Source of the DNA: a virus
Virus record (IMG/VR): IMGVR_UViG_3300020214_000001
Location: 1-42,764 of that record
Length of the DNA: 42,764 bases
Reading direction: 5' to 3' (one strand)
In this document: one piece after another, positions 1,470 to 42,764 of the stretch
How the letters are laid out: the number at the start of each line of letters is the position of its first letter
Position numbering within the stretch: position 1 is the first letter of the stretch
Translations under genes and position numbers: made by a program
The notes under the pieces: generated by a model
The model's input: the letters and a program-made list of their open reading frames with translations, nothing else
What the model was told of the DNA's origin: nothing
Databases searched by the model: none

Positions 1470-1498
1470 AGGGGTGTAGCCAATTATGTAGCCGGGGA

Positions 1499-1702: not shown

Positions 1703-1737
1703 GCACGGAACTGCCCCTTGTAGCGGCTTGTAGCCGG

Positions 1738-2097
1738 GGTGTCACCATGCGGGAGGGGGTGGACCCACCTGACGAGGGTGCCACCCGCACGGAAGGTCTG
1801 TAGATACAGGGCGAAATGCGTGTTTGGTGGCACCCTACCCCTGTTTGTGCCAAGTCGGACACCGGAGGACATCGGGGAGGACATCGGGGGCAGGGTGAGC
1901 CCTCCCCTTTAGGTTATAGAGAGAGAGAGAGAAAAGCATATAGTGAGGCCCAAGGTGCCACCCAACACTAATTATCTCCCGTGTTTATGCGGGTTTGCTC
2001 GGGGTGGCACCCTCGACGACGACGCTGGGAAGGTGCCACCCAAACCCGATGTCAGCCCCGTGTTTGCTGGTGTTCGTGCGCGTGCGAGGGTGCCACC
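1738..2097. repeat. Array of GGTG-N-CACC palindromes in three paired modules
   Basis: The 9-base palindrome GGTG(N)CACC occurs at 1738, 1777, 1826, 1954, 2003, 2032 and 2089 (start positions), with one more copy at 1554. Six copies form three pairs enclosing modules at 1777-1834, 1954-2011 and 2032-2097, of 58, 58 and 66 bases. The first module is inverted relative to the other two. Once aligned, the modules share CCC-G/T-TGTTT-like middles. Module 1 has an inner perfect palindrome, CTGTA-TC-TACAG, and module 2 has CCCG...CGGG. No protein-coding gene is supported between 1509 and 2238: besides these modules the stretch holds the att region, a GA run at 1920-1932 and a terminator. Origin iterons, operators and REP-like elements are all possible. 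Confidence 0.75.
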
Positions 2098-2131: not shown

Positions 2132-2180
2132 AAAAAAAAACCCCGCCCCCGCCCGGGCAAATGCCCAAGACGGAGGCGGG
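2132..2180 (-). terminator. Strong leftward rho-independent terminator
   Basis: On the minus strand CCCGCCTCCG (2180-2171) pairs over 10 bp, with one G-T pair, with CGGGGGCGGG (2151-2142). The loop holds its own small GGGC/GCCC hairpin. One G and then nine T residues follow (2140-2132). It lies about 60 bases past the last gene of the leftward accessory operon and shields the palindrome array and attP from that transcription. Confidence 0.85.
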
Positions 2181-25913: not shown

Positions 25914-28900
25914 ATGGACCCAATCACCGGAGTTAGCCCGCTGCTTGCCCGACAATGGGCGCTGATGCGCGAGAAGACTCGCGCAGAAGGCGGCTGGGAC
26001 CCGTGGACCCCCGAGCAACGCGCCAACGCGGTAGCAAATTTCTCTAACCAATGGCTCGACGCCAACCCGGAAAATCTGGGCGTGAAGGTCGCTGTGGCCG
26101 ATTTCCAACGCCGGATTGCCCAGCAGGAGGAAGCGCGTGCCGCGCGTAATGTTAATGTTCTTACCCCTTTGACTGCCGCAGCTCCGCAAAGCTACGACTT
26201 CACCATTCAGCCGCAGCCCTATACGCCCACGGCCAACCCATCCCAGACAAACATGGTGGAATACGCGCCCGCCGCCGTCGCGCCGAGGAATCAGAATAGC
26301 TTTTTCGGTGACATCGAGCGGGGCTGGGATGACAAGGGCGAGCGGGTCGCACAGTCCTTGTTGCTTAGTACGGGGCAGTTCTCCAAGGACGACCTCAAGC
26401 GCCAGTTCGCGGACGAGTATGTAAAAGAGCAGTTGTCTGACACGTATGAGAAGCCGCCGAGCTTTATTCCTCATTTAGCGGGTGAACTGGCCCGCACCGT
26501 CACGGGCACCGCGCTCGCAACGGGCGCAGGCTACGGCCTTGGTGGTCTTTTGTGGGCTGGTTCAGTCGAAGGCACCGCTGCGCGGATGCAGTCGTGGCGG
26601 GACAACACTTTCTCGGCAGCAGACAATCTTGAAAATTTTGACAGTGCGTTCGACAAAGCATCCGGCATTGCCACCCGGGCGGGTGTTTTGATGGGTGGCG
26701 CGTCAATGGTGCCCGTGCCCCTTGTTGTCGGCTCGCTTGGCAAGGGCACCGCAGTAAAGGGTCTTGTGCAAAGCGTTGCGCCCGGCATGGCAAACGTGGC
26801 GACAAAAGCGGCAGAAACCGCCGCTGGGAAAGCCGTGGATGCGGCGGGCAAAAAGTTGTTTGGCTCATCAGCGGCGGCATTGGACCGCTATCTCCTCAAA
26901 GACTCCACGCTGACCGGCGCGGCCCGCTTTGCGGCGCAAACAGGGAGGTTGGCGGCGCTGTCGGGGGTGGAAAACGTCGCTGCCGAAAGCGCAAACATTG
27001 GGCAGGAACTCCTGTCAGGCAGCGAAAACACGCGGGGCGGTTCGGTAGGCGGGCGGCTCGGCATGGCGGGCGTGACTGGCAGCGTCATCTCGGCTGCCCA
27101 TAGCGCCGGTGGCAAAGTCTTCAAAGCAACCAAAGACGGCACTTTGATTGACGGAAATTTGTTCGCTGACGAGAACTTGGCGGGCGCGGTGAACTTCATC
27201 CTGTCTGACAAGTGGAAGACCGCACGCGGCGACCAAGCCGCGACGGCCCGGCTGGCGAAGGCGATGGCGACCCCGGAAGGGGAAGTCGTCTCGGCGGTCG
27301 GGGATGCGGCCACCGTGGGCAACCCGGTGTTCGACGCCATCACGCGCAAGAATCCCAGCTTTGAGGCTAAGTTCACGGACGAGCAGCCCGCCAGTTCGCC
27401 GGACGCGCTAGGTCACGCCGCCGAGAAGCTGGTGACGTTTTTCCAACGCTACGGGCGAGTGACCAGCGCAGAGCAGGCGGCGACCGTGCTGCACGAGGCG
27501 GGACACGTCCATCTGGACACCCTTGCGCCCCGCTTGCAGGACGTTCTGTTCGACAAGTTTCGCGCGGAAATGACGACCGGGGACAGCCCGTTGCTTCGGG
27601 GGCTGACCAAGGAGGGCAAGCCAGTCGAACAGGGTTGGGTGGACCCGCAGGTGGTGAAGTTTTGGGAGAAGTCACAGGACGCTTCGCTCACGCCTGCCCA
27701 ACGGGCGGAGTTCGCCAACAAGGCGTTCCGCGAGTGGTATTCCGAGCGCATGGTTTTTCAAGAGCAGGCGTGGGCCGAACGCCGGGTTGACCGGGCAACG
27801 GACACCTCTGTTTTTGGTCGCCTGCTTAACGACATTAGCGCCCGCGCCGAGATGGTTGGCCGGGCGATGGGCCTCTCTGACCCGCTCGGCTTCCGCCGGA
27901 CATTGGACGAGGGACCCAACGCGGACCCCGTCAACGCCACCCTTCCAATGGTGATGGAGAAGCTCGGAGCAAAAGTTGAACCGCCAGTTTCTAAAAAACC
28001 TTTTGCCGAGTCTAACCTTGCTCCGGGCGTGCTTATTGGCACCCCGCCCAAAGACGCTAGTTCAGACGGGCAGACGTTGTTTGGGTCGCCAGAAACCCTA
28101 CGGGCAGCAATTCTCGGCGAGACGCCGACAACTCCGAAGTCGGTGCTGGACGCCATGCCCGCCGACGACGTGGCCCGCCTGCGCCGGGAAAACCTGCGTC
28201 AGAGCTTTGAGGAGCTGGCTGCGCCGCCCGTGGACCCGCGCCTGCCCGCCCGCTACCAGCCGGAGGAAGGGGTCGCGGCCAATGTCCAGACAGCCGAACG
28301 CCGCCTACTTGCCCGCGAGCTGCGAGCCAAGCTGGAAGCCGAGCAGCCCAAGCCTGCCGAGGTTGCGCCACCCAAGCCTGCCGAGGTTGCCGCAGAAGCC
28401 CCGCCCGCGCCGCGTCTCGTAAAAAGCGCGGACGAGGAAGGTGGATTCTCCGCGTCGCCAGTCCCGTTGTCTCCCCGCACGGGAGAGGAGTTCAAGCTCG
28501 CGCCGAACGACCCGGCCTACAACTACCGGATGGATGCGACGCAGCCCATGATTACGATGGGCGACAAGGTGTCCTTCGTGCAGACGATTGAGAAGACCAC
28601 CAAGTCGGGGCGCACAAAACGTGTGCCCGGCCCCCGACTATTCGGCACGGTAGAGGGCTTCACCGAGGGTGGTCAAATCACCGTGCGCGTCTCCGAAGAA
28701 GGTCGCACGGGTGACTACTTTATGAACTTCAACTCGGGGCGTTTGCTGCGCCGCGAGGCCGCCCCGGAAGCCAAAGCCCCCGCTCCGGTGCCCGAAGCCC
28801 CGTCTGCGCCGCTTATCCGCGCGGCGGGCGAGAAGGTAGGCCGTGGCGAAGCCATGACCTACGACGAGAAGATGGCCCTACGCGCGGCCATTGAGCAGGA

Positions 28901-31900
28901 GACAGAGCAGGCACGGCTGGCCCGGCGCAGCGCGTTGGACGACCTTAGCACGCGCAAGCGCACCCTCTCGCCCGCCGATGAGGCAAGGCTCGACCAGTTG
29001 GCAGCAATCATGGACACGGGCATGGCGTCCAAACAGCAGGCCAAGGAATACCGCGCACTGCGCGAGGCCAAGCAAGCCGCTGCCAAACCGCCGCCGGAAG
29101 AAGTCTTGGAAAACAACCGGCTGGGCTGGGCCGACCGGCACAACGGCTGGCTGTTGCCCGACGGCAGGTTCATCGAAACCGAGCCAGCGGCAGCGGTCTA
29201 TTTTCGAGGATTTGACGGAGAACTGCGCCCCGGCTCGCACGGCGAGGTTGCCCTTGCGTGGCTGCAACAGAACGACCCCCAAGCACTTCAACAGTTTCGC
29301 CCCCCTTTCAACGACGATGCTGTGGAGAGCGAGATGTTCCGGCGCGGCTGGGTCCGCATCGCCGAAGGCGGGCAAGTCAACTATTTGCAGGGCAAGCCCA
29401 ACCAGAGGCAGGAAGCTGTCTTGGCGGAATGGTCGGCTGAGGCAGCCAAGACGGAAGGGGAACCGATTAAATGGTCGCGCGTTGCCCCCGGCAACAGCCC
29501 CAAGCGAAGGGTTGACGGCTCTCTAACTAGCGCGTGGATTCGTGAAGCCAACCTTGGGGGCGGTGGCGAGGACCAGCTCTCTGTACGCAAGCGGCTAGAC
29601 GACGATGAAGTCGAGTTGCGTCTATCCGCCGCCACGGGGCAAATTCCCGGTCTAAACCAACTGCAAAAACGGGCAGCACGCGGCGGCCCCGATGGGCGAG
29701 TAGCGCAGCAACTTCTGTCCGACACAGCTACCGACGCGCTAAACCACTACTTCGCCAACACGGACTTAATAGTAGTTTCAACCCCAACGATGGGCGTGTT
29801 CGGTAGCGCATACGAACCGTCAGTTAATGTGCAAGTGCGAGGTTCAGAAGAATCTTTGGCCCACGCCCTTGCTGGCGCGGTCAGGTTCGGGCGCAATTTC
29901 TCTCAGAAACAAGTTCACGTTTTACGCAACGCGCCGGACGACGCAGTCATCGGCGCAAACACAACCGACGGGTCGCGGGTGGTCCCGTTCTACACGTTTG
30001 AACTCAAGCAACCACTGTCCGCGCCGCAAGTCCAAAAACTCGCAAAAGATTCCCGCCTAGAAGGTTTCACGATTGACGGCAACAAATTGGAAATTTATTA
30101 TGCAGAAGACATACATGACACCGCCGGACTCCGAGCCTTCAAAGAAGGCATCCAACGCGCCGAAGCATCCCTTGGCAGTAATGCACGAGGAGTTACTAGC
30201 ACATTTTCGCGCCTCTGGTCTTACGGTAAAGGAGGGCCAGAAACAGTTCCCTACGGACGGGTTCCAGATAAACTTCCAGCCACACCGGAAAGACGAGACA
30301 ACCCCATCGCCCGACGAATCGCCGCGCGATTAGTTGAGCGGGACGTAGTGGGTGCCCACCCGGCAAGCCGTCTCACCCCCGAACAAGACGCCTATCAAAC
30401 ACGGGTGGCGGATGAGTTTAGCAGGCTTCCGCTAGACGACCTTGAAAACCCGAGCGTCAACCGGGCATATGCCGCGCTGGCGGCAGAACTAAAGGACCAA
30501 TACCGGAGCTTACCCGTTCGTGTAGAGACGTGGCCCGGAAAAGAACAGCCCTACGAAAACTCGGCGGCGATGCGCCGGGACATTTTCGACAACAACCACC
30601 TTTTCATTTTTGGGACCGACAAGAATACTTTCGGCCCCAAGGGGGCAAAATACAGCGACGACCATCCTTTGTTGCAGGAATCGTCCTTCAAGGATGTCAA
30701 CGGTCGTCGGTTACTCGTGAATGACCTCCTTCGCGCGGTTCACGATTATTTTGCTCACACGATGAGCCGCGCCGAGTTTGGCCCGCTGGGGGAGGAAGCC
30801 GCATGGCGAATCCACATGGAAATGACGCGCAGCCCGTGGGCGCGTTGGGCGTTGACTACGGAAACACGCGGCCAAAACTCTTGGGTCAACTTTGGGCCGC
30901 ACCGTGAGTGGAACCGGGCGCACCCTAAAGAAACCCGTTACGCAGAACAAAAGACTGCGTTGCTGCCGATTGAGTTCACGAAGCTGGGCGACCCGAGACT
31001 CGACGCGGAAATGGACGCTGCTTACGATAGAGGAAATTTCTCTCGACGCAAACTTCCGTCTGGGCCAACGCCGACCGCCGAGCCGCGCGACTTCCCCGAG
31101 CGGGCCGGACGCGCCGACCCCGAGCTGGGCCGCATCAACGCGGCGCGGCCTGACATCCACTTCTACGAGCCGCAAACCATCACGGACGGCATCGCCGCCG
31201 CTTCGGGCAAAGCCGATGCTGCGTTAGACGCATCCCTCGCCGCGCTCAACGCTAAGGTAGAAACGGACACGTTAAACAACTTCCTTGTCCTCGACGGACT
31301 TGAACGGATGCGCCGGGCTTTAGACGCGGGTGACACGGCTAAGGCAGAGAGTGTCTATGACACTTTGTCAAAAGCCGGGACTACTCTCGGCCAGTTGCTC
31401 CGCCAATTTGCAGAGTTCCGCACGCCCAAGACGCCGGAAAATGTGGTGGCTTTGGTGGAGCTGGGCCTTGCAAAGCGCGGGCTGCGGTTGCAGGACGGGC
31501 AGAAGACCCGGCTGCGCGGGTTGGTGGATGCTTCTGAAACCGCCCGGAACGATTACGAGACTGCGGCAGAAGCAGCCCTTACAAACCCGGCGGCTGTGGA
31601 AAAAGATTTTCGCGCAGTGGACAAGCTGGAACTAGCCGCCGGGCAAGCCGAGCGCGAGTGGCGGCGTTACGCAACCGTAATGTTCCCGCGCGAGTCCCTG
31701 TCCCGCGACTTGCTCGCGGTTATCCAAGGCAACCTGCTCACGGCCAAGTCCACGGTCAGGAACTTCTGGCACAACTACGCGACTGGCTCGGTTCGCCTGC
31801 CCTCCCGGCAGTTGGGCGCCATGGTGGACGCAGCGGTGAGCGCAGCCCAAGGCCGGGAGCGTTCGCTTTCCGGCGTGTCACTGACCGAGGCCCAATGGTT

Positions 31901-33602
31901 TGCCCGAGCGACGGCGGACGCGGTGCCGACCGCTGGGGAAATCCTTCTGCGGGGCAGTGGCGGTAACGAGCGGATAATAGGCGAGCGTATCCGTGGCTTT
32001 CATCCGGTTGACGCACTCATGCGAGCGTTCAACGGGGACCTGCCAGTGGACACAGTGACCGGCACGGTGCCCCTCAAGCTGCGCGGATTGAAGCTCGCCG
32101 AAGCGTTCTTTGGTGCGGCCCCCGAGCCGATGCTGCGAAGTCTCGCGGCGATGGACGAAGTGGCCAAGGCGGGCTTCCGAGCTTCCCGGCTGGCGCAGGA
32201 ATTGAACCTCACCGGGGACAAGCCCGGCACGCGCGGCTACGCCGAACACCGATTGCGTGCGACCGGGGAACTACGGGCCAAAGCGGAAGAAACCGCACTG
32301 GAAGGCACGTTTCAACAAGACTCCGCAGCTTCGCAAGGCGCAAGCGCAGTAGAGGGCATAGTTCGCAAGGTGGCCGGGGAACCGGGGGCGGTAGCGTTCC
32401 GCCTTCTGACCTCGCCCTACATTAAAACGCCCGTGAACGTGGCCGTGGAAACCGTGTCCTACGTCGTGCCCGCGCTTGCGGCCACGCAGGCTGCGGTCTA
32501 CGGCTACCGGGGCGACCGCCGCGCGGCGTCCCTCGCCGTAGGCAAGTTCCTCACGGGCCTGACTCTGGCTGCCGCCGCCGACTGGCTGCTGGAAGACGGG
32601 CTAGTTTCCGGCGGGCCTGCTGGGCCAGATAAAATGCGGGAGTTTCAAATGTCTTCGGACATGGAGTTTTACCGCCTCAATGTTGACGGATTGAAGCGCA
32701 AGCTGGCCGGTGGCAGCGGTCGCTATGTGGACGGCGATACGACCTTCCGGCTGGACTTGCTCGGCATCCCGGGCGTTGTCTTCGGAGTCCGCGCTGACAT
32801 GGCAAACCTCGCCGAAACCGCAACCCCGAACCGGGTACCCAGCGAGGACGCGCAAAAATTTAACATTGAATTGTTCTCAGAGATGCTTGGCATGACACGC
32901 TTCATGGTGGACACGACAATGATGCAAAACGTGGGGAACACGCTCCGCGCTGTTGTCACTGGCGACGTAAACCGCGTGGTGCAAAACGTGGCCAGTCAGG
33001 TCGCCGTAGTCCGACCGGATTGGGCAAACACGGTTACGTCGTTCCGGCAAGCGCAGCGTGGCGTCATGCCAGATGTCAGGGACAAGGACATCCCGACCAT
33101 GCTCAGGAACGTGGTCGCGTGGAAAAACGGCGAATGGCAAGACCTTCCAAAGAAGCTGGATTTGTGGGGCAACCCCAGAACGGCGGTGCCCGAAGGAGTT
33201 GACCCTTACCTGCACGTTCTTGCCGACATTCGGCAACCCAAAACCGGACAAGACCGAGCGACGACCGTGCTGCAAAATGCCTACGCAGCGACACGCGACG
33301 ACCGGGTTATCCCCGGCTGGCCAAACCGCAACTTAGAATACAAAGATTTACCCAAAGGCTTGTATCTACCAGCACACTTATATCAATCGTATGTCCACGA
33401 TGTCATGCAAGCAAAGCGCGAGGTGTTGGGGAATCTGATTCAAAACCCAGAGTTCCTTGCGTCCCCGGCAAACGTGCAAGTAAACGTGCTGGACCGGGCC
33501 TACGACCGCGCGGGAAACCGAGCGGCGTTAGCATGGCGCGGACGCCATTACACCGAGTTGGAGAGCGAACGACAGAAGTTAAAAGCGTGGCTTGACCGCT
33601 AG
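25914..33602 (+). CDS. Giant multidomain internal virion protein (2562 aa) with putative metal-binding active sites
   Basis: 2562 residues, 18% of the genome. The N-terminal 180 residues are helical, followed by Gly/Ala-rich hydrophobic stretches (about 190-280) that may insert in membranes. H527-E-A-G-H531 ('TVLHEAGHVHLDTLAPRLQD') is a zincin-type HExxH motif. About 740-980 is Pro/Ala/Glu-rich linker. Near 1520-1680 lies a conserved phage block with H1610-D-Y-F-A-H1615, 'GEEAAWRIHMEM' and T1649-E-T-R-G-Q-N-S-W1657, which looks like a metal-dependent enzyme site. Long helical domains fill 1700-2560, with a hydrophobic 'FLTGLTLAAAADWLL' near 2200. Likely a polyvalent protein ejected with the DNA, acting on the envelope or host targets. 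Its stop overlaps the convergent 33599 gene by three bases. Confidence 0.75.
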   Translation: MDPITGVSPLLARQWALMREKTRAEGGWDPWTPEQRANAVANFSNQWLDANPENLGVKVAVADFQRRIAQQEEARAARNVNVLTPLTAAAPQSYDFTIQPQPYTPTANPSQTNMVEYAPAAVAPRNQNSFFGDIERGWDDKGERVAQSLLLSTGQFSKDDLKRQFADEYVKEQLSDTYEKPPSFIPHLAGELARTVTGTALATGAGYGLGGLLWAGSVEGTAARMQSWRDNTFSAADNLENFDSAFDKASGIATRAGVLMGGASMVPVPLVVGSLGKGTAVKGLVQSVAPGMANVATKAAETAAGKAVDAAGKKLFGSSAAALDRYLLKDSTLTGAARFAAQTGRLAALSGVENVAAESANIGQELLSGSENTRGGSVGGRLGMAGVTGSVISAAHSAGGKVFKATKDGTLIDGNLFADENLAGAVNFILSDKWKTARGDQAATARLAKAMATPEGEVVSAVGDAATVGNPVFDAITRKNPSFEAKFTDEQPASSPDALGHAAEKLVTFFQRYGRVTSAEQAATVLHEAGHVHLDTLAPRLQDVLFDKFRAEMTTGDSPLLRGLTKEGKPVEQGWVDPQVVKFWEKSQDASLTPAQRAEFANKAFREWYSERMVFQEQAWAERRVDRATDTSVFGRLLNDISARAEMVGRAMGLSDPLGFRRTLDEGPNADPVNATLPMVMEKLGAKVEPPVSKKPFAESNLAPGVLIGTPPKDASSDGQTLFGSPETLRAAILGETPTTPKSVLDAMPADDVARLRRENLRQSFEELAAPPVDPRLPARYQPEEGVAANVQTAERRLLARELRAKLEAEQPKPAEVAPPKPAEVAAEAPPAPRLVKSADEEGGFSASPVPLSPRTGEEFKLAPNDPAYNYRMDATQPMITMGDKVSFVQTIEKTTKSGRTKRVPGPRLFGTVEGFTEGGQITVRVSEEGRTGDYFMNFNSGRLLRREAAPEAKAPAPVPEAPSAPLIRAAGEKVGRGEAMTYDEKMALRAAIEQETEQARLARRSALDDLSTRKRTLSPADEARLDQLAAIMDTGMASKQQAKEYRALREAKQAAAKPPPEEVLENNRLGWADRHNGWLLPDGRFIETEPAAAVYFRGFDGELRPGSHGEVALAWLQQNDPQALQQFRPPFNDDAVESEMFRRGWVRIAEGGQVNYLQGKPNQRQEAVLAEWSAEAAKTEGEPIKWSRVAPGNSPKRRVDGSLTSAWIREANLGGGGEDQLSVRKRLDDDEVELRLSAATGQIPGLNQLQKRAARGGPDGRVAQQLLSDTATDALNHYFANTDLIVVSTPTMGVFGSAYEPSVNVQVRGSEESLAHALAGAVRFGRNFSQKQVHVLRNAPDDAVIGANTTDGSRVVPFYTFELKQPLSAPQVQKLAKDSRLEGFTIDGNKLEIYYAEDIHDTAGLRAFKEGIQRAEASLGSNARGVTSTFSRLWSYGKGGPETVPYGRVPDKLPATPERRDNPIARRIAARLVERDVVGAHPASRLTPEQDAYQTRVADEFSRLPLDDLENPSVNRAYAALAAELKDQYRSLPVRVETWPGKEQPYENSAAMRRDIFDNNHLFIFGTDKNTFGPKGAKYSDDHPLLQESSFKDVNGRRLLVNDLLRAVHDYFAHTMSRAEFGPLGEEAAWRIHMEMTRSPWARWALTTETRGQNSWVNFGPHREWNRAHPKETRYAEQKTALLPIEFTKLGDPRLDAEMDAAYDRGNFSRRKLPSGPTPTAEPRDFPERAGRADPELGRINAARPDIHFYEPQTITDGIAAASGKADAALDASLAALNAKVETDTLNNFLVLDGLERMRRALDAGDTAKAESVYDTLSKAGTTLGQLLRQFAEFRTPKTPENVVALVELGLAKRGLRLQDGQKTRLRGLVDASETARNDYETAAEAALTNPAAVEKDFRAVDKLELAAGQAEREWRRYATVMFPRESLSRDLLAVIQGNLLTAKSTVRNFWHNYATGSVRLPSRQLGAMVDAAVSAAQGRERSLSGVSLTEAQWFARATADAVPTAGEILLRGSGGNERIIGERIRGFHPVDALMRAFNGDLPVDTVTGTVPLKLRGLKLAEAFFGAAPEPMLRSLAAMDEVAKAGFRASRLAQELNLTGDKPGTRGYAEHRLRATGELRAKAEETALEGTFQQDSAASQGASAVEGIVRKVAGEPGAVAFRLLTSPYIKTPVNVAVETVSYVVPALAATQAAVYGYRGDRRAASLAVGKFLTGLTLAAAADWLLEDGLVSGGPAGPDKMREFQMSSDMEFYRLNVDGLKRKLAGGSGRYVDGDTTFRLDLLGIPGVVFGVRADMANLAETATPNRVPSEDAQKFNIELFSEMLGMTRFMVDTTMMQNVGNTLRAVVTGDVNRVVQNVASQVAVVRPDWANTVTSFRQAQRGVMPDVRDKDIPTMLRNVVAWKNGEWQDLPKKLDLWGNPRTAVPEGVDPYLHVLADIRQPKTGQDRATTVLQNAYAATRDDRVIPGWPNRNLEYKDLPKGLYLPAHLYQSYVHDVMQAKREVLGNLIQNPEFLASPANVQVNVLDRAYDRAGNRAALAWRGRHYTELESERQKLKAWLDR

Positions 33603-33820
33603 TAGTTAGCCTCGTCTGGGACAAAATCCAGCAGCGTTGCCGACACCAAAGGAGGCCGCTGACCTCGCCGCGCCCAAAACGCGCGATAACCTTTGGCCAC
33701 CTCGTCAATAAGGTCGGCTTCGTCGTCAGAAATCCACTCGCGGACGCGCTCGCGCCGCGCCGACAGCTCGCCCGCCGTGTCCCACGTTATTCCGGCAAAA
33801 GGGGAATTGTGATGCGCCAT
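33599..33820 (-). CDS. Small protein at the end of the replication operon
   Basis: 73 residues, charged and helical ('ARRERVREWISDDEADLIDEVAKGYRAFWARRGQRPPLVSATLLDFVPDE'). The ATG at 33820 lies inside the end of the SF3 helicase gene (34-base overlap), so it is translationally coupled and the last gene of the leftward operon. Its stop overlaps the end of the convergent giant virion gene by three bases, and no terminator hairpin separates the two. No family is recognised. A replication accessory is the natural guess. Confidence 0.65.
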   Translation of the reverse strand: MAHHNSPFAGITWDTAGELSARRERVREWISDDEADLIDEVAKGYRAFWARRGQRPPLVSATLLDFVPDEANY

Positions 33821-35109
33821 TGAGAAGTGCCTTTGACCCGCTTGCGTTTAACCACCTTGGGCTTTGTCTTCGCTAACCGGCCCAAGTAGGTGCCCATCGC
33901 GCCGGGCCACGAGAGCAGGCGGCGCACAATCATCGCGCTGGGCATGGAGCTGGCAGTCATCAGCCGCTCTAAGTCCGTGGCGTCACCAGACCATGCGGTC
34001 GGGTCGGGCAACCCCAACGTGGGCAAGTCATGGAGCAGGCAGGCCAGCAGAGAAACTTCCGGTGCTGTATCCTCCACGGCGTCCAGCAGGGCGGGGCAGT
34101 GCCACGACTTCACGCCGTAGCGTTCATGCCGGAGGTCGGCGGGGACCTCGTAGGTGTCCACAAAATGAGCAAGAGCGGGCAGCTCGGCAGCGATGGCTGC
34201 GCCGAACGCCTCGCGCTTCTCCGTGGCCCCGTCGGAGAACGGGAACTCAGGCATGGACAAGCTGAACAGGTGCAGCTTCTCCTTGATAGCGTCGTCCATC
34301 GGGGGCAGCACGTTGAGGTTCTCCTTCTCGGGATTGAGCGACAGTGATACCCGCCACTTGGGCGTGAGGAAAATCGCCCGCTGGCCTTTGCCGTGACACC
34401 GCTGGATGGAGTTGACCGCCAACTCCTTGAGGCGGGTCCCGAACTGCCGCCGCGTATCCATGTCGAACCTAAAGAATTTATCCTCAACCGCAAGGTGGTC
34501 CGCCTCGAAAATCTCGGCATTGAAGTCGCACTTGCCCGCCATGTAGTCAAAGGGACACGCCTGACGACCGCCCAACAGTGGGGTGATGATGGCGTTTTGC
34601 AGCAGGCTCTTGCCCACGCCATGCGCCCCCGCAAAAATAGCCACTTGACCGGGCAGCGGAGCGAAGCTGCGAAATGAGCGGCGGGCTTGTTTCAACCAGC
34701 CGATAAGGTAAGGCATTTGTTCCATGCCAAACTGAGCGGTCAGCAGGGCGTCCACAACCGGCCACTCGCCGGGGACCGCGACGGTGGGGCGGCTACCCTC
34801 GACGACGAGGAACCGTTTCCCGCCCTGCTCGTGCAAGCCGGAGGGATGTCCTGACAGTCGCCCGAACCCGTCCGCCTTGTTGTGGAGCTGGTAGGCCAAC
34901 AGGCAAGATTCAACCGGGGAAATGTCCGCGCCCTTGGGGACCTTCTGGCTGACGCCGACCGCGCGGAGGCGGCGCACCACGTTCTTCTCGTCCATCGGGT
35001 CAAAGCGACCTTCAGCCGTGGCAACATGATACTTCATGGGGTCAAACGTGACCGCTACTTGGAGGGGTACGGGAATGCCGTCTGTTTGTGGTTGGTGGAG
35101 TGCAATCAT
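33787..35109 (-). CDS. SF3-type replicative helicase
   Basis: 440 residues from the ATG at 35109, overlapping the primase stop by four bases. An upstream in-frame extension to 35238 is antisense-like and not used. Walker A is 'AGAHGVGKS' (near residue 160), Walker B 'HLAVEDKF', followed by 'RRQFGTRLKELAV...QRCHGKGQRAIFLTPKWRVSLSLNPEKENL', where the late Asn is the SF3 sensor, and 'PPMDDAIKEKLHLFSL'. This order matches superfamily 3 helicases of phages and plasmids, hexamers that unwind DNA ahead of a primase-polymerase. The primase gene lies directly upstream. The C-terminal 100 residues look like a winged-helix accessory region. Confidence 0.8.
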   Translation of the reverse strand: MIALHQPQTDGIPVPLQVAVTFDPMKYHVATAEGRFDPMDEKNVVRRLRAVGVSQKVPKGADISPVESCLLAYQLHNKADGFGRLSGHPSGLHEQGGKRFLVVEGSRPTVAVPGEWPVVDALLTAQFGMEQMPYLIGWLKQARRSFRSFAPLPGQVAIFAGAHGVGKSLLQNAIITPLLGGRQACPFDYMAGKCDFNAEIFEADHLAVEDKFFRFDMDTRRQFGTRLKELAVNSIQRCHGKGQRAIFLTPKWRVSLSLNPEKENLNVLPPMDDAIKEKLHLFSLSMPEFPFSDGATEKREAFGAAIAAELPALAHFVDTYEVPADLRHERYGVKSWHCPALLDAVEDTAPEVSLLACLLHDLPTLGLPDPTAWSGDATDLERLMTASSMPSAMIVRRLLSWPGAMGTYLGRLAKTKPKVVKRKRVKGTSQWRITIPLLPE

Positions 35110-36020
35110 GGGTTGAGATATAAAAGAGATTGAAAACGGCCTGTCTCGCGGCGGTGCCAGCCGGGGCACCGGACAGGTTGGGCAAGGCGCAGCGTGGCAG
35201 CGTCCACGCCGAGCGAGGGCAGGACGACCGTGGCCCATTCGTGAGCCTCGGGGGTGTAGGTGAACCAGCCGTGCAGAGATTTGTTGCCGGAGTCAACGAC
35301 CGCGCGGAGCTTCAATTCGGGTCGCGCGGCGAGAATGTATTTGAACACGGCACCAGAGAGGTCGCGGTTCTTTGCAGGGTCGGCGGCAAGCGCATCGCAC
35401 TCGACGACCATGTGCCGCGTCGCTGCGAGGTTGTCCTTCCCGCGCACCGAGCTGCCGGGCTTGAATAGATTTGGGCAAGTGAAGGGGCGGGCCGGAAAAC
35501 GCAGCTCCCGCCAGCGGGCGACTGTGCGGAAGTTCGCAAGGTTGGCGAGGCTGCCGGATTCGTGCGGCTCGCCGCACCACAAGACATCCGTCGGGTCAAA
35601 CAGCGAAAGGAACTGCTGCCAGTGGTCGGTGATGTGAACGGGACTGTCGTGGGCCACCATCCGCTCGGGCCACCAATACGCTGCCATGACCTGTTCCTTG
35701 GCCAGCGACAAGCGACGGGCCTGCCGTTCCAGCTCGGCACGGGCGGCGAGCTTGGCGCGAGCGGCGGCGTCTAAAACGGGCGGTTGCCACGCACCTGTCT
35801 CCCGCAAAGCGGCGCGGAGAGCAGCGTTCGCCGCTTTAACTTTTCCGCGACAGCCAGTGTGCAGACAAAAAATGGTGGGTACCCGGTCAAGGAACAACGT
35901 CGTGTCGCGCGGCTTGGTGGGCTTGCTGTGCAAGTCTACGCCGGGACACGTAATATATCCTCGCACATTTTCGACTTCCCAATGCACCGGGCCGGTGATG
36001 CTGCCGGGAGTGTTGTTCAT
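35106..36020 (-). CDS. Primase (AEP/primase-polymerase type) with N-terminal zinc-finger-like domain
   Basis: 304 residues from the ATG at 36020. The N-terminus has a Cys/His cluster ('GYITCPGVDLHSKP...PTIFCLHTGCRG') like the DNA-binding fingers of phage primases. The core carries 'RHMVVECDAL' (catalytic acidic pair), 'VVDSGNKSLHGWF' (nucleotide-binding S-x-x-K-S-x-H motif) and 'LRLAQPVRCPGWHR', the three motifs of archaeo-eukaryotic-type primases. It makes primers for the PolA polymerase encoded just upstream. ATGA overlaps on both sides indicate coupled translation with the polymerase and helicase. Confidence 0.78.
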   Translation of the reverse strand: MNNTPGSITGPVHWEVENVRGYITCPGVDLHSKPTKPRDTTLFLDRVPTIFCLHTGCRGKVKAANAALRAALRETGAWQPPVLDAAARAKLAARAELERQARRLSLAKEQVMAAYWWPERMVAHDSPVHITDHWQQFLSLFDPTDVLWCGEPHESGSLANLANFRTVARWRELRFPARPFTCPNLFKPGSSVRGKDNLAATRHMVVECDALAADPAKNRDLSGAVFKYILAARPELKLRAVVDSGNKSLHGWFTYTPEAHEWATVVLPSLGVDAATLRLAQPVRCPGWHRRETGRFQSLLYLNP

Positions 36021-37774
36021 TTGGTGTAATAAGTTTGAATTGCGCCTTCGGCGGTAAGAGGTAAGCCAACCGCCCACTCAGGCGGGGTGGATAACGTGTG
36101 AATAACTTTTGTCAGGACATCGGGGGCATCCTCAGTCGGGCATTCAACAATGACCTCGTCGTGGACGTGCCACACTACGTTTATTCCTGAAAACTCAAGG
36201 CGGAGCAGGGCGTCCGCGAACACGTCGCGGGCGACAGCCTGCACAATGTTCTCGGTTAGTTTGCCACCCCACGTCGCGATGCGTGTGCCGTTCTTGACGC
36301 TGGCACAGACAACCCGGCTAGGTTCTTCGGGGTCAACGGCAGGCGACCACCAACGCATCTCCCGGCCAGAGGGCAAGGCATACGTCAGGTCCCGGCGGCA
36401 GATGCGAGCGGAACCGAGCTGCGCGTCCAACGCCCGCCAGTAAGCCGTGACCAGAGGGTTTGTCCGCCGCCAGTCTTTGACGGTCGCGTCGGCTTCCTCG
36501 GCGGTTAAATTAAGCCCGGCCATTGTGCGGGCAACGGCGACGAACTTGGTGCCACCGCAGCCGTAGCCAAGTCCAAGGACACGGGCCTTGGCAAGCTGGT
36601 AAGTGTCGGGAGCCTCGGACTTGAGCTTGCCACCAGTCCAGCCCATCGTGGCGCGGGCATGGGCCTCGTAGAGCGGCAGGCCACGGCGGAGGTCGCCCAG
36701 CATCTTCTGGTCGTCGCACAGCCACGCAAGGACACGGGGTTCAATCTGCGACAGGTCGCAGATAACAAAAGAATTGCCGGGAGCGGGGCGAAACAATCGC
36801 CGCAGCTCCGCGCCATACATCTCACCGCGCGGGAGGTTCTGCATATTGACCCCGGCGTCGCCGGACCACCGCCCGGTGTGACCACCCCAATACTTGAGGT
36901 TGACTGGCATGGTCCCGTCGGGCCGGACACGCGCGGCGATGTTCTCCAATTTGCGAAGCAGCACGTTGCTCCTGCGGTAGTCGCGCACGGCGCGGATAAA
37001 GGGCCATCGGTCAGCGAACTTGTCCTCCCAAACCGCACATTCATCGGAGTCCTGCGCGAGCGAAGCGGGGGCGGAAATGCCCACGGTCGCACAGTAGTCG
37101 CGGAGAACGGCGAGAGACAGGATAGCCCCGCCGCCACCAGCCCACGGGATGTCAGCCTCGGCCTTAGCGCGGGCCGCGCGAACGGACTCAAGCTGCGTGG
37201 CAAGAAGCGGTTGGTCCACGCCGACCCCGGACCAGATGAAGGCGCGGGTCTGTCCTGACAGACGGCGTTCATGGGCGGGCCAACAGCCGCCAAAGAAATT
37301 CCAAAGGCGGAGACAAAGCTCGGCGTCGCGGCGGGCGTAGTCGAGCAGCTCCTTGTCCTTGCCCTTGGCCACCGCGTCAGACCAGTGTTTGCCGCTCATC
37401 CAGTTCCGCATCAGCTTGGGAACGTGTTCGCCGAAGGCGGCTTGAATGGCGTCGGCAAGGGAGCGGGGCAAGCCGCAGTAGGCGGCGAGGTCGGCAGTGC
37501 AGCTCCACGAGCGAGGCGTGAAATCGGCGAACAGGCTGCGAGACATCCCAGCCTGCGCCACCGTCATGTCGAACCCGGCGTTGTGCGAGCAAAGGTCCCT
37601 GCCGTTGAGCTGTCGAAAGTCGAAGGCGGCAGGGTCGCCCACGAAGTCAAAGCCCTCGCCACGCACGGCCACCATATAAATGTCGGTGTCAGGATGGTGC
37701 GCGTAAGCCCACGGGCCGTGGTCAGCGACCGTGTGCGTGCGCGAGTAGAACGTCTCGAAGTCAACGGCTATCAT
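36017..37774 (-). CDS. polA-like: Family A DNA polymerase with 3'-5' exonuclease
   Basis: 585 residues from the ATG at 37774 ('MIAVDFETFYS'). Exonuclease: Asp5/Glu7 in DFET, 'SHNAGFD' (Asp69) and Tyr146/Asp150 in 'YARRD'. Polymerase: motif A D340-LSQIEPR-347, motif B with Lys396, Leu400 and Tyr404 in 'LAKARVLGLGYG', motif C H538-D-E540. It lacks the 5'-3' exonuclease of bacterial Pol I. Leu400 aligns with E. coli Phe762. Leucine at this site has been linked in viral-ecology work to slow, mostly temperate phages, in keeping with the integrase. The position equivalent to Arg754 is Tyr. The stop overlaps the primase ATG by four bases. The 76-base gap before it holds nothing obvious. Confidence 0.93.
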   Translation of the reverse strand: MIAVDFETFYSRTHTVADHGPWAYAHHPDTDIYMVAVRGEGFDFVGDPAAFDFRQLNGRDLCSHNAGFDMTVAQAGMSRSLFADFTPRSWSCTADLAAYCGLPRSLADAIQAAFGEHVPKLMRNWMSGKHWSDAVAKGKDKELLDYARRDAELCLRLWNFFGGCWPAHERRLSGQTRAFIWSGVGVDQPLLATQLESVRAARAKAEADIPWAGGGGAILSLAVLRDYCATVGISAPASLAQDSDECAVWEDKFADRWPFIRAVRDYRRSNVLLRKLENIAARVRPDGTMPVNLKYWGGHTGRWSGDAGVNMQNLPRGEMYGAELRRLFRPAPGNSFVICDLSQIEPRVLAWLCDDQKMLGDLRRGLPLYEAHARATMGWTGGKLKSEAPDTYQLAKARVLGLGYGCGGTKFVAVARTMAGLNLTAEEADATVKDWRRTNPLVTAYWRALDAQLGSARICRRDLTYALPSGREMRWWSPAVDPEEPSRVVCASVKNGTRIATWGGKLTENIVQAVARDVFADALLRLEFSGINVVWHVHDEVIVECPTEDAPDVLTKVIHTLSTPPEWAVGLPLTAEGAIQTYYTK

Positions 37775-37850
37775 AAACTTAAAGGCCACACGCGGAGGGC
37801 AACGAGCGGACAACCACGAACCGCCCATCACCCCCGCGCGTGTGACCAAG

Positions 37851-42622: not shown

Positions 42623-42764
42623 ATGAGACAACTCGAAAAGACTCAACGAGGGAATGCTCCCGGCAAAAGTTTGCGCCTGCGCGAAACCACGCTGCGCGAA
42701 GTAATCGAGATGGCAGAGTCGTGCGACTGCACGTTCAGTGAGGTGGCTCGCGACCTCATTGATG
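42623..42764 (+). CDS. Ribbon-helix-helix-like regulator, 5' part (continues at base 1)
   Basis: Start ATG at 42623, with a good Shine-Dalgarno site. The first five codons (MRQLE) are unique to this end, and the rest repeats bases 1-127. With the part at 1-363 the full protein is 125 residues. See the 3' part for domains. The gene faces away from the HTH/excisionase gene across a 96-base control region holding two different TTGACA elements. Confidence 0.6.
   Translation, partial: MRQLEKTQRGNAPGKSLRLRETTLREVIEMAESCDCTFSEVARDLID
42638..42764. repeat. Terminal direct repeat, right copy
   Basis: Identical to bases 1-127. It should be counted once when the circle is closed. Confidence 0.95.

Follow-up and report, generated by a model that had tools for sequence, protein, structure and literature searches.

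The replication region of phage P4 is the closest described counterpart of the locus reported here. The P4 α protein binds the repeats of its origin through a winged-helix domain, and then unwinds the DNA and primes synthesis (PMC4234260). In the P4 record (NC_001609), crr comes next after the arm-site pair beyond the attachment core; its ori type 1 repeats run in both orientations, and a leftward terminator and the α gene follow. Two other systems are relevant. In lambda-type origins, iterons bound by the initiator lie next to an AT-rich tract (PMC7466680). In pRN1, a replicon with a primase, an SF3 helicase and a winged helix, replication requires a stem-loop in cis, located downstream of the primase-helicase gene and proposed as a general feature of replicons of this kind (PMC4234260). 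Here we describe an array of short palindromes at positions 1738–2097 of a viral genome. Our analysis indicates that the array is probably a P4-type cis origin of a temperate tailed phage, bound by the winged helix of a DUF5906-like helicase.

The window, by which we mean the whole stretch of DNA analysed (42,764 nucleotides), is an entire virus record bounded by a direct repeat of 127 bases (1–127 and 42638–42764). This terminal repeat indicates that the genome is probably circular and complete, at about 42.6 kb, despite the "linear" label of the record. Head and packaging proteins are encoded, as well as a leftward replication operon for a RusA-like resolvase, a helicase, an exonuclease, a dNMP kinase, a family A DNA polymerase (36017–37849, minus strand; PHROG 1.5e-78), a probable primase (35106–36077, minus strand) and, adjoining the primase, a DUF5906-like SF3 helicase (33787–35238, minus strand). 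The primase has no family match and is assigned from its position and from a reading of the relatives' sequences. A tyrosine integrase of 389 amino acids is encoded at 339–1508 on the minus strand (Pfam PF00589, 37.5 bits; PHROG integrase), with a later in-frame ATG at 1469 as a possible alternative start. Its Foldseek structure matches include lambda Int and Tn1549 Int, and a search of 84,980 prokaryote genomes with two peptide patterns found no homologues of it. Elsewhere in the window, a 38-base exact tandem repeat at 2546–2621 spans a gene start, and a single ORF of 2562 amino acids at 25914–33602 has a weak PHROG match to a family of unknown function. Two relatives were compared with the window. 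G001 (IMGVR_UViG_3300027627_000015) has an integrase 47% identical and a polymerase 69% identical to those of the window. G015 was fetched by a blind DNA-pattern search, and the gene beside its array turned out to be a 38% identical integrase. As far as genes could be matched, their order around the array is alike in all three.

The palindrome GGTGNCACC occurs nine times in the whole 42.8 kb compared to 0.94 expected, a count that none of 100 shuffles reaches. Eight of the sites are clustered in 1554–2097, with starts at 1554, 1738, 1777, 1826, 1954, 2003, 2032 and 2089, and the only copy outside the cluster is isolated at 36548. The densest 400 bp holds seven sites, compared to at most two in 300 Markov simulations. 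With GGTGCCACC denoted plus and GGTGGCACC minus, the C/G-centred sites, marked as iterons by the site count and the simulations, run 1777–1785 (+), 1826–1834 (−), 1954–1962 (+), 2003–2011 (−), 2032–2040 (+) and 2089–2097 (+). The first four open and close two inverted modules of 58 bp (1777–1834 and 1954–2011), each a plus site followed by a minus site with a start-to-start distance of 49, and the last two open and close a direct pair of 66 bp (2032–2097). The initial annotation had described a recurrent array with modules of 58, 58 and 66 bases, one of them inverted, in a gene-free region. The array and its module lengths are real and the motif exceeds chance level, but two modules are inverted and the third is direct. 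The region does appear gene-free, as none of the three small ORFs across it matches a PHROG. An Rfam search gave no RNA family match, and a literature search for the 9-mers returned, among the matches listed, only primers and unrelated sequences. By site count the cluster also includes two T-centred palindromes, GGTGTCACC, at 1738–1746 and further left at 1554–1562, on the integrase side of the attachment core described below. These T-centred copies, GGTGTCACCAT, thus lie one on each side of the core and, unlike the C/G-centred sites, are possibly the sites of another protein.

As single-stranded DNA, both inverted modules form more stable folds than shuffled sequences do (z −4.1 and −3.8), and so does the inverted module of G001 (z −5.1). 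The direct module folds no better than shuffles (z +0.1). These hairpins could themselves be the working part of the locus, either as single-strand initiation structures or as a stem-loop origin, for which pRN1 provides a precedent (PMC4234260). We regard this as highly improbable: any two opposed copies of a site form a hairpin automatically, the direct pair does not take part, and neither the sequence nor the length of the loops is conserved. pRN1 differs from the window in having no iterons; in the window it is the repeated sites that are conserved.

Phage attachment cores usually consist of the 3′ end of a tRNA gene, and a sequence that reads as such an end (T arm, acceptor and CCA) is present at 1651–1675 on the plus strand, just right of the start of the integrase gene. 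We take it to be probably that of a tRNA-Gly. ARAGORN reports no whole tRNA gene in the window, the core being the gene end only. The same 25 bases are found without change in G001, again with palindromes beside them. A repeat search predicts two arm-type sites left of the core (TGTAGCC at 1475–1481 and 1487–1493, plus strand). The predicted right pair (TGTAGCG at 1719–1725 and TGTAGCC at 1729–1735, plus strand) lies 44 and 54 nt past the core end, compared to 43 and 53 nt in G001. In both genomes the pairs are direct repeats, 12 apart on the left and 10 apart on the right; those of G001 are TGTGTCC/TGTGACC on the left (2615 and 2627) and TGTGACC/TGTTTCC on the right (2825 and 2835). The four-site arm score of the window is one mismatch, whereas the best of 60 random windows has three. 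The score of three in G001 is unremarkable alone, and it is the shared place and geometry that is remarkable. In G015 the four-site arm search located no attachment core.

The palindromes were at first explained as the arm-type sites of the integrase, with the array as part of attP, and this explanation was dropped once the separate arm pairs turned up. Its attraction was that in the window and in G001 the core and the array are immediate neighbours, that in G015 the array adjoins the integrase gene, and that palindromes are also present on the integrase side, at 1554 in the window and as two one-mismatch sites in G001. We now consider it very unlikely. The pairs that flank the core in both genomes already have arm geometry, and they hold it as TGTRNCC pairs while the number and position of the palindromes vary between relatives, so that no fixed placement of palindromes on both arms is seen. 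An array of the same order also stands beside VapE genes, in records where an integrase was not found (see below). Between the window and G001 the arm motif has diverged from TGTAGCC to TGTGnCC, and the palindromes are still GGTG[CG]CACC. Because the arm motif changed and the palindrome did not, the arms and the palindromes are likely to have different binding proteins. On the far side of the array, a terminator-like hairpin with a T9 tail (2142–2161, minus strand; a consensus match only) would halt leftward transcription ahead of the array.

To place the array in a wider context, we scanned viral contigs for triplets of GGTGNCACC separated by gaps of 10–40 bases, using no gene information. 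The scan yielded many arrays, and those with all spacings divisible by three, which were numerous, were set aside as in-frame coding repeats. GGTGNCACC arrays are found mostly in or beside replication-initiator genes, either lambda-O-like or VapE/primase-helicase, and seldom near integrases; the survey covers GGTGNCACC alone and shows where its arrays lie, not an enrichment at origins over other palindromes. Among the matches listed, 26 of the 76 ORFs in or near the remaining arrays fall in one PHROG "replication initiation protein" family, many further neighbours are O-like, DnaB-like, primase and VapE helicase ORFs occur too, and several intergenic arrays adjoin primase or VapE helicase genes. 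Integrases are present, among the matches listed, in 12 of 50 array records; in records that list both positions, the distance between array and integrase ranges from 1.3 kb to tens of kb. Arrays that are C/G-centred, as in the window, lie in or near genes that are O-like (L052, L145), initiator (L295), VapE (L021, L096, L293), DnaB-like (L138), polymerase/primase (L297) or ParB-like (L092), and the neighbourhood of L288 gave no match. DUF5906 matches were obtained in seven of 25 records tested, and all seven bear arrays. Members of the L021/L096/L293 family have the array immediately 3′ of the VapE gene, and an integrase was not found in the records tested from this VapE-linked family (L007, L009, L021 and L023). 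Other occurrences are of different character. The L015 clusters, as we read their sequence, resemble terminator hairpins; the low-GC contigs of the L026 family (for example L026:549-742) have another GGTGNCACC cluster, with no recognised initiator in its vicinity; and same-orientation GGTGCCACC arrays are present in the bacterial contigs L213, L264, L202 and L233, of which L213, L202 and L233 are titled Planctomycetes.

The lambda origin resembles the window array in combining iterons with an AT-rich tract, and some O-like genes hold GGTGNCACC arrays. However, the lambda origin lies in the O gene and the window array is intergenic: its iterons lie in no O-like initiator gene, to judge from the lack of PHROG matches for the ORFs there, and no O-like gene was identified among the window proteins scanned.

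The order and spacing of the sites link the window to the VapE arrays and to P4. A plus site, a minus site 41–49 further on and a plus site 21–29 beyond that are found in the window (49, 29), G001 (44, 22), G015 (47, 21), L021 (45, 23), L293 (43, 23) and P4 ori (41, 24). For each array, random placement yields this arrangement about 1% of the time, a figure that serves as a guide and not as a test, as the spacing ranges were fitted after the data had been seen; L018 and L021 were first found by a pattern with a fixed plus-minus gap. When the window, G001 and L293 are aligned as DNA, their sites fall in register, and a minus and a plus site enclose an AT-rich tract. The order minus, AT tract, plus-minus-plus-plus is common to the window and the arrays directly 3′ of VapE genes (the L021, L096 and L293 families), which also share the 9-mer and the spacing. 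The latter arrays differ from that of the window in following the helicase gene directly, in having no integrase nearby and in belonging to a clear VapE (PF05272). In the window the tract is AT/purine-rich (TTATAGAGAGAGAGAGAG..., 1913–1945) and a candidate unwinding element: it has the lowest duplex stability in the array, at the 98.3rd percentile of the window, and an easily melted tract is present in each array tested (98.3 to 99.99 percentile). The position and order kept in relatives, together with simulations that exclude chance, leave practically no probability that the array is a chance cluster or a REP/REPIN-like mobile repeat. The latter had been raised initially, and palindromic units in inverted pairs are indeed REPIN-like in outline, but many dispersed copies are not seen; one cluster and a single other copy refute this reading for the window genome.

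The comparison with P4 reveals a shared layout as well as clear differences. In both genomes a leftward integrase gene is followed by an arm pair, the attachment core, a second arm pair, oriented iterons in inverted and direct arrangement and a leftward terminator. The iterons begin with GGTG in both (GGTGAACA in P4), and the plus-minus spacing is about 41–43 in P4, compared to 43–49 in window-type arrays. The α primase-helicase matches DUF5906 (PF19263) with 38.2 bits, the helicase of G015 reaches 27.1 bits, and the window helicase matches weakly with 17.6 bits, below the cut-off of 27.6. On the other hand, P4 iterons are the asymmetric GGTGAACA, whereas those in the window are the palindromic GGTGNCACC. 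α is one protein encoded beside crr, whereas the window has a separate primase and helicase about 9 kb from the array, and the window phage has its own family A polymerase and structural genes. The window thus has an intergenic cluster of short direct and inverted iterons, placed beside attP past the arm sites and bounded by a terminator, as expected for the P4 type. P4 has and needs two cis regions, ori and crr, whereas the 42.8 kb of the window hold one cluster. Because a search for a second such region gave none, we file the locus as working like a P4-type origin and not as a strict member of that type.

The proposed initiator, the helicase at 33787–35238, was assigned from the PF19263 match and a structure model, and is 56% and 40% identical to its counterparts in the relatives. 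A C-terminal winged helix is predicted with modest confidence at residues of about 390–480 (pLDDT 62–84), where winged-helix matches reach Z 7.0 and the Foldseek E-values are not significant. The model is poor outside the C-terminus (mean pLDDT 45), and a profile comparison with the VapE family aligned just 38 residues, around the P-loop. Searching solved structures by sequence gave nothing useful, the P4 α winged-helix structure is absent among the structural matches listed (an absence that carries no weight), and no homologues of the helicase were found in annotated phages.

Of the three readings in the initial annotation, a replication origin is the best supported, because of the association of arrays with initiators, the site order shared with VapE-linked arrays and the P4-like layout. 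The low-stability tracts, the predicted winged helix of the helicase and the retention of the palindromes while the arm sites diverge point the same way. We infer from this not only the function but also the binding protein and the place where the DNA opens. In the proposed mechanism, the SF3 helicase would bind the oriented GGTGCCACC sites through its C-terminal winged helix, two initiator assemblies would be positioned on inverted pairs 43–49 bp apart, and the tract at 1913–1945 would open, leaving the probable primase and the family A polymerase to begin synthesis. Several features count against an origin. The helicase gene does not adjoin the array, its DUF5906 match is below the cut-off, its model is poor outside the C-terminus, its alignment to VapE is short and there is a single cluster. 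The GC skew, proposed initially as a check, stays above zero along almost all of the genome and does not switch at 1.7–2.2 kb. The T-centred sites at 1554 and 1738 are also not accounted for by origin function.

A multi-site operator was the third of these readings. Here a phage repressor or other regulator on the palindromes would govern the leftward operon headed by the integrase gene. Short perfect palindromes fit a dimeric regulator, the array is upstream of that operon, and one weak promoter-like match (1917–1944) lies within the array. This match points rightwards, however, and is at consensus level only, the terminator-like hairpin separates the array from the genes on its right, and comparable arrays are tied to replication genes and not to repressor genes. 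We consider an operator-only function unlikely and keep it as a minority rival, and an initiator may make dual use of the sites. Overall, the initial annotation was right in part, and it had passed over the elements on either side of the array, namely the attachment site, the arm sites of the integrase and the terminator.

The origin proposed here is of a known kind, and what is new is its setting and its iteron. It provides a testable origin for a phage group whose replication start was not found described in the material searched, and oriented GGTGNCACC sites with a plus-minus spacing of 41–49 are a pattern that can be searched for in other phages. It is conceivable, though unlikely, that GGTGNCACC is a recurrent origin iteron for unrelated initiators, both VapE/DUF5906 SF3 helicases and lambda-O-like proteins. 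If so, one 9-bp code would mark origins across many phage lineages, shared perhaps through a common host factor or through exchange of winged-helix modules. Our results suggest that the P4 layout, with the attachment site beside the replication region, is not confined to satellites but is also present in full-size temperate phages.
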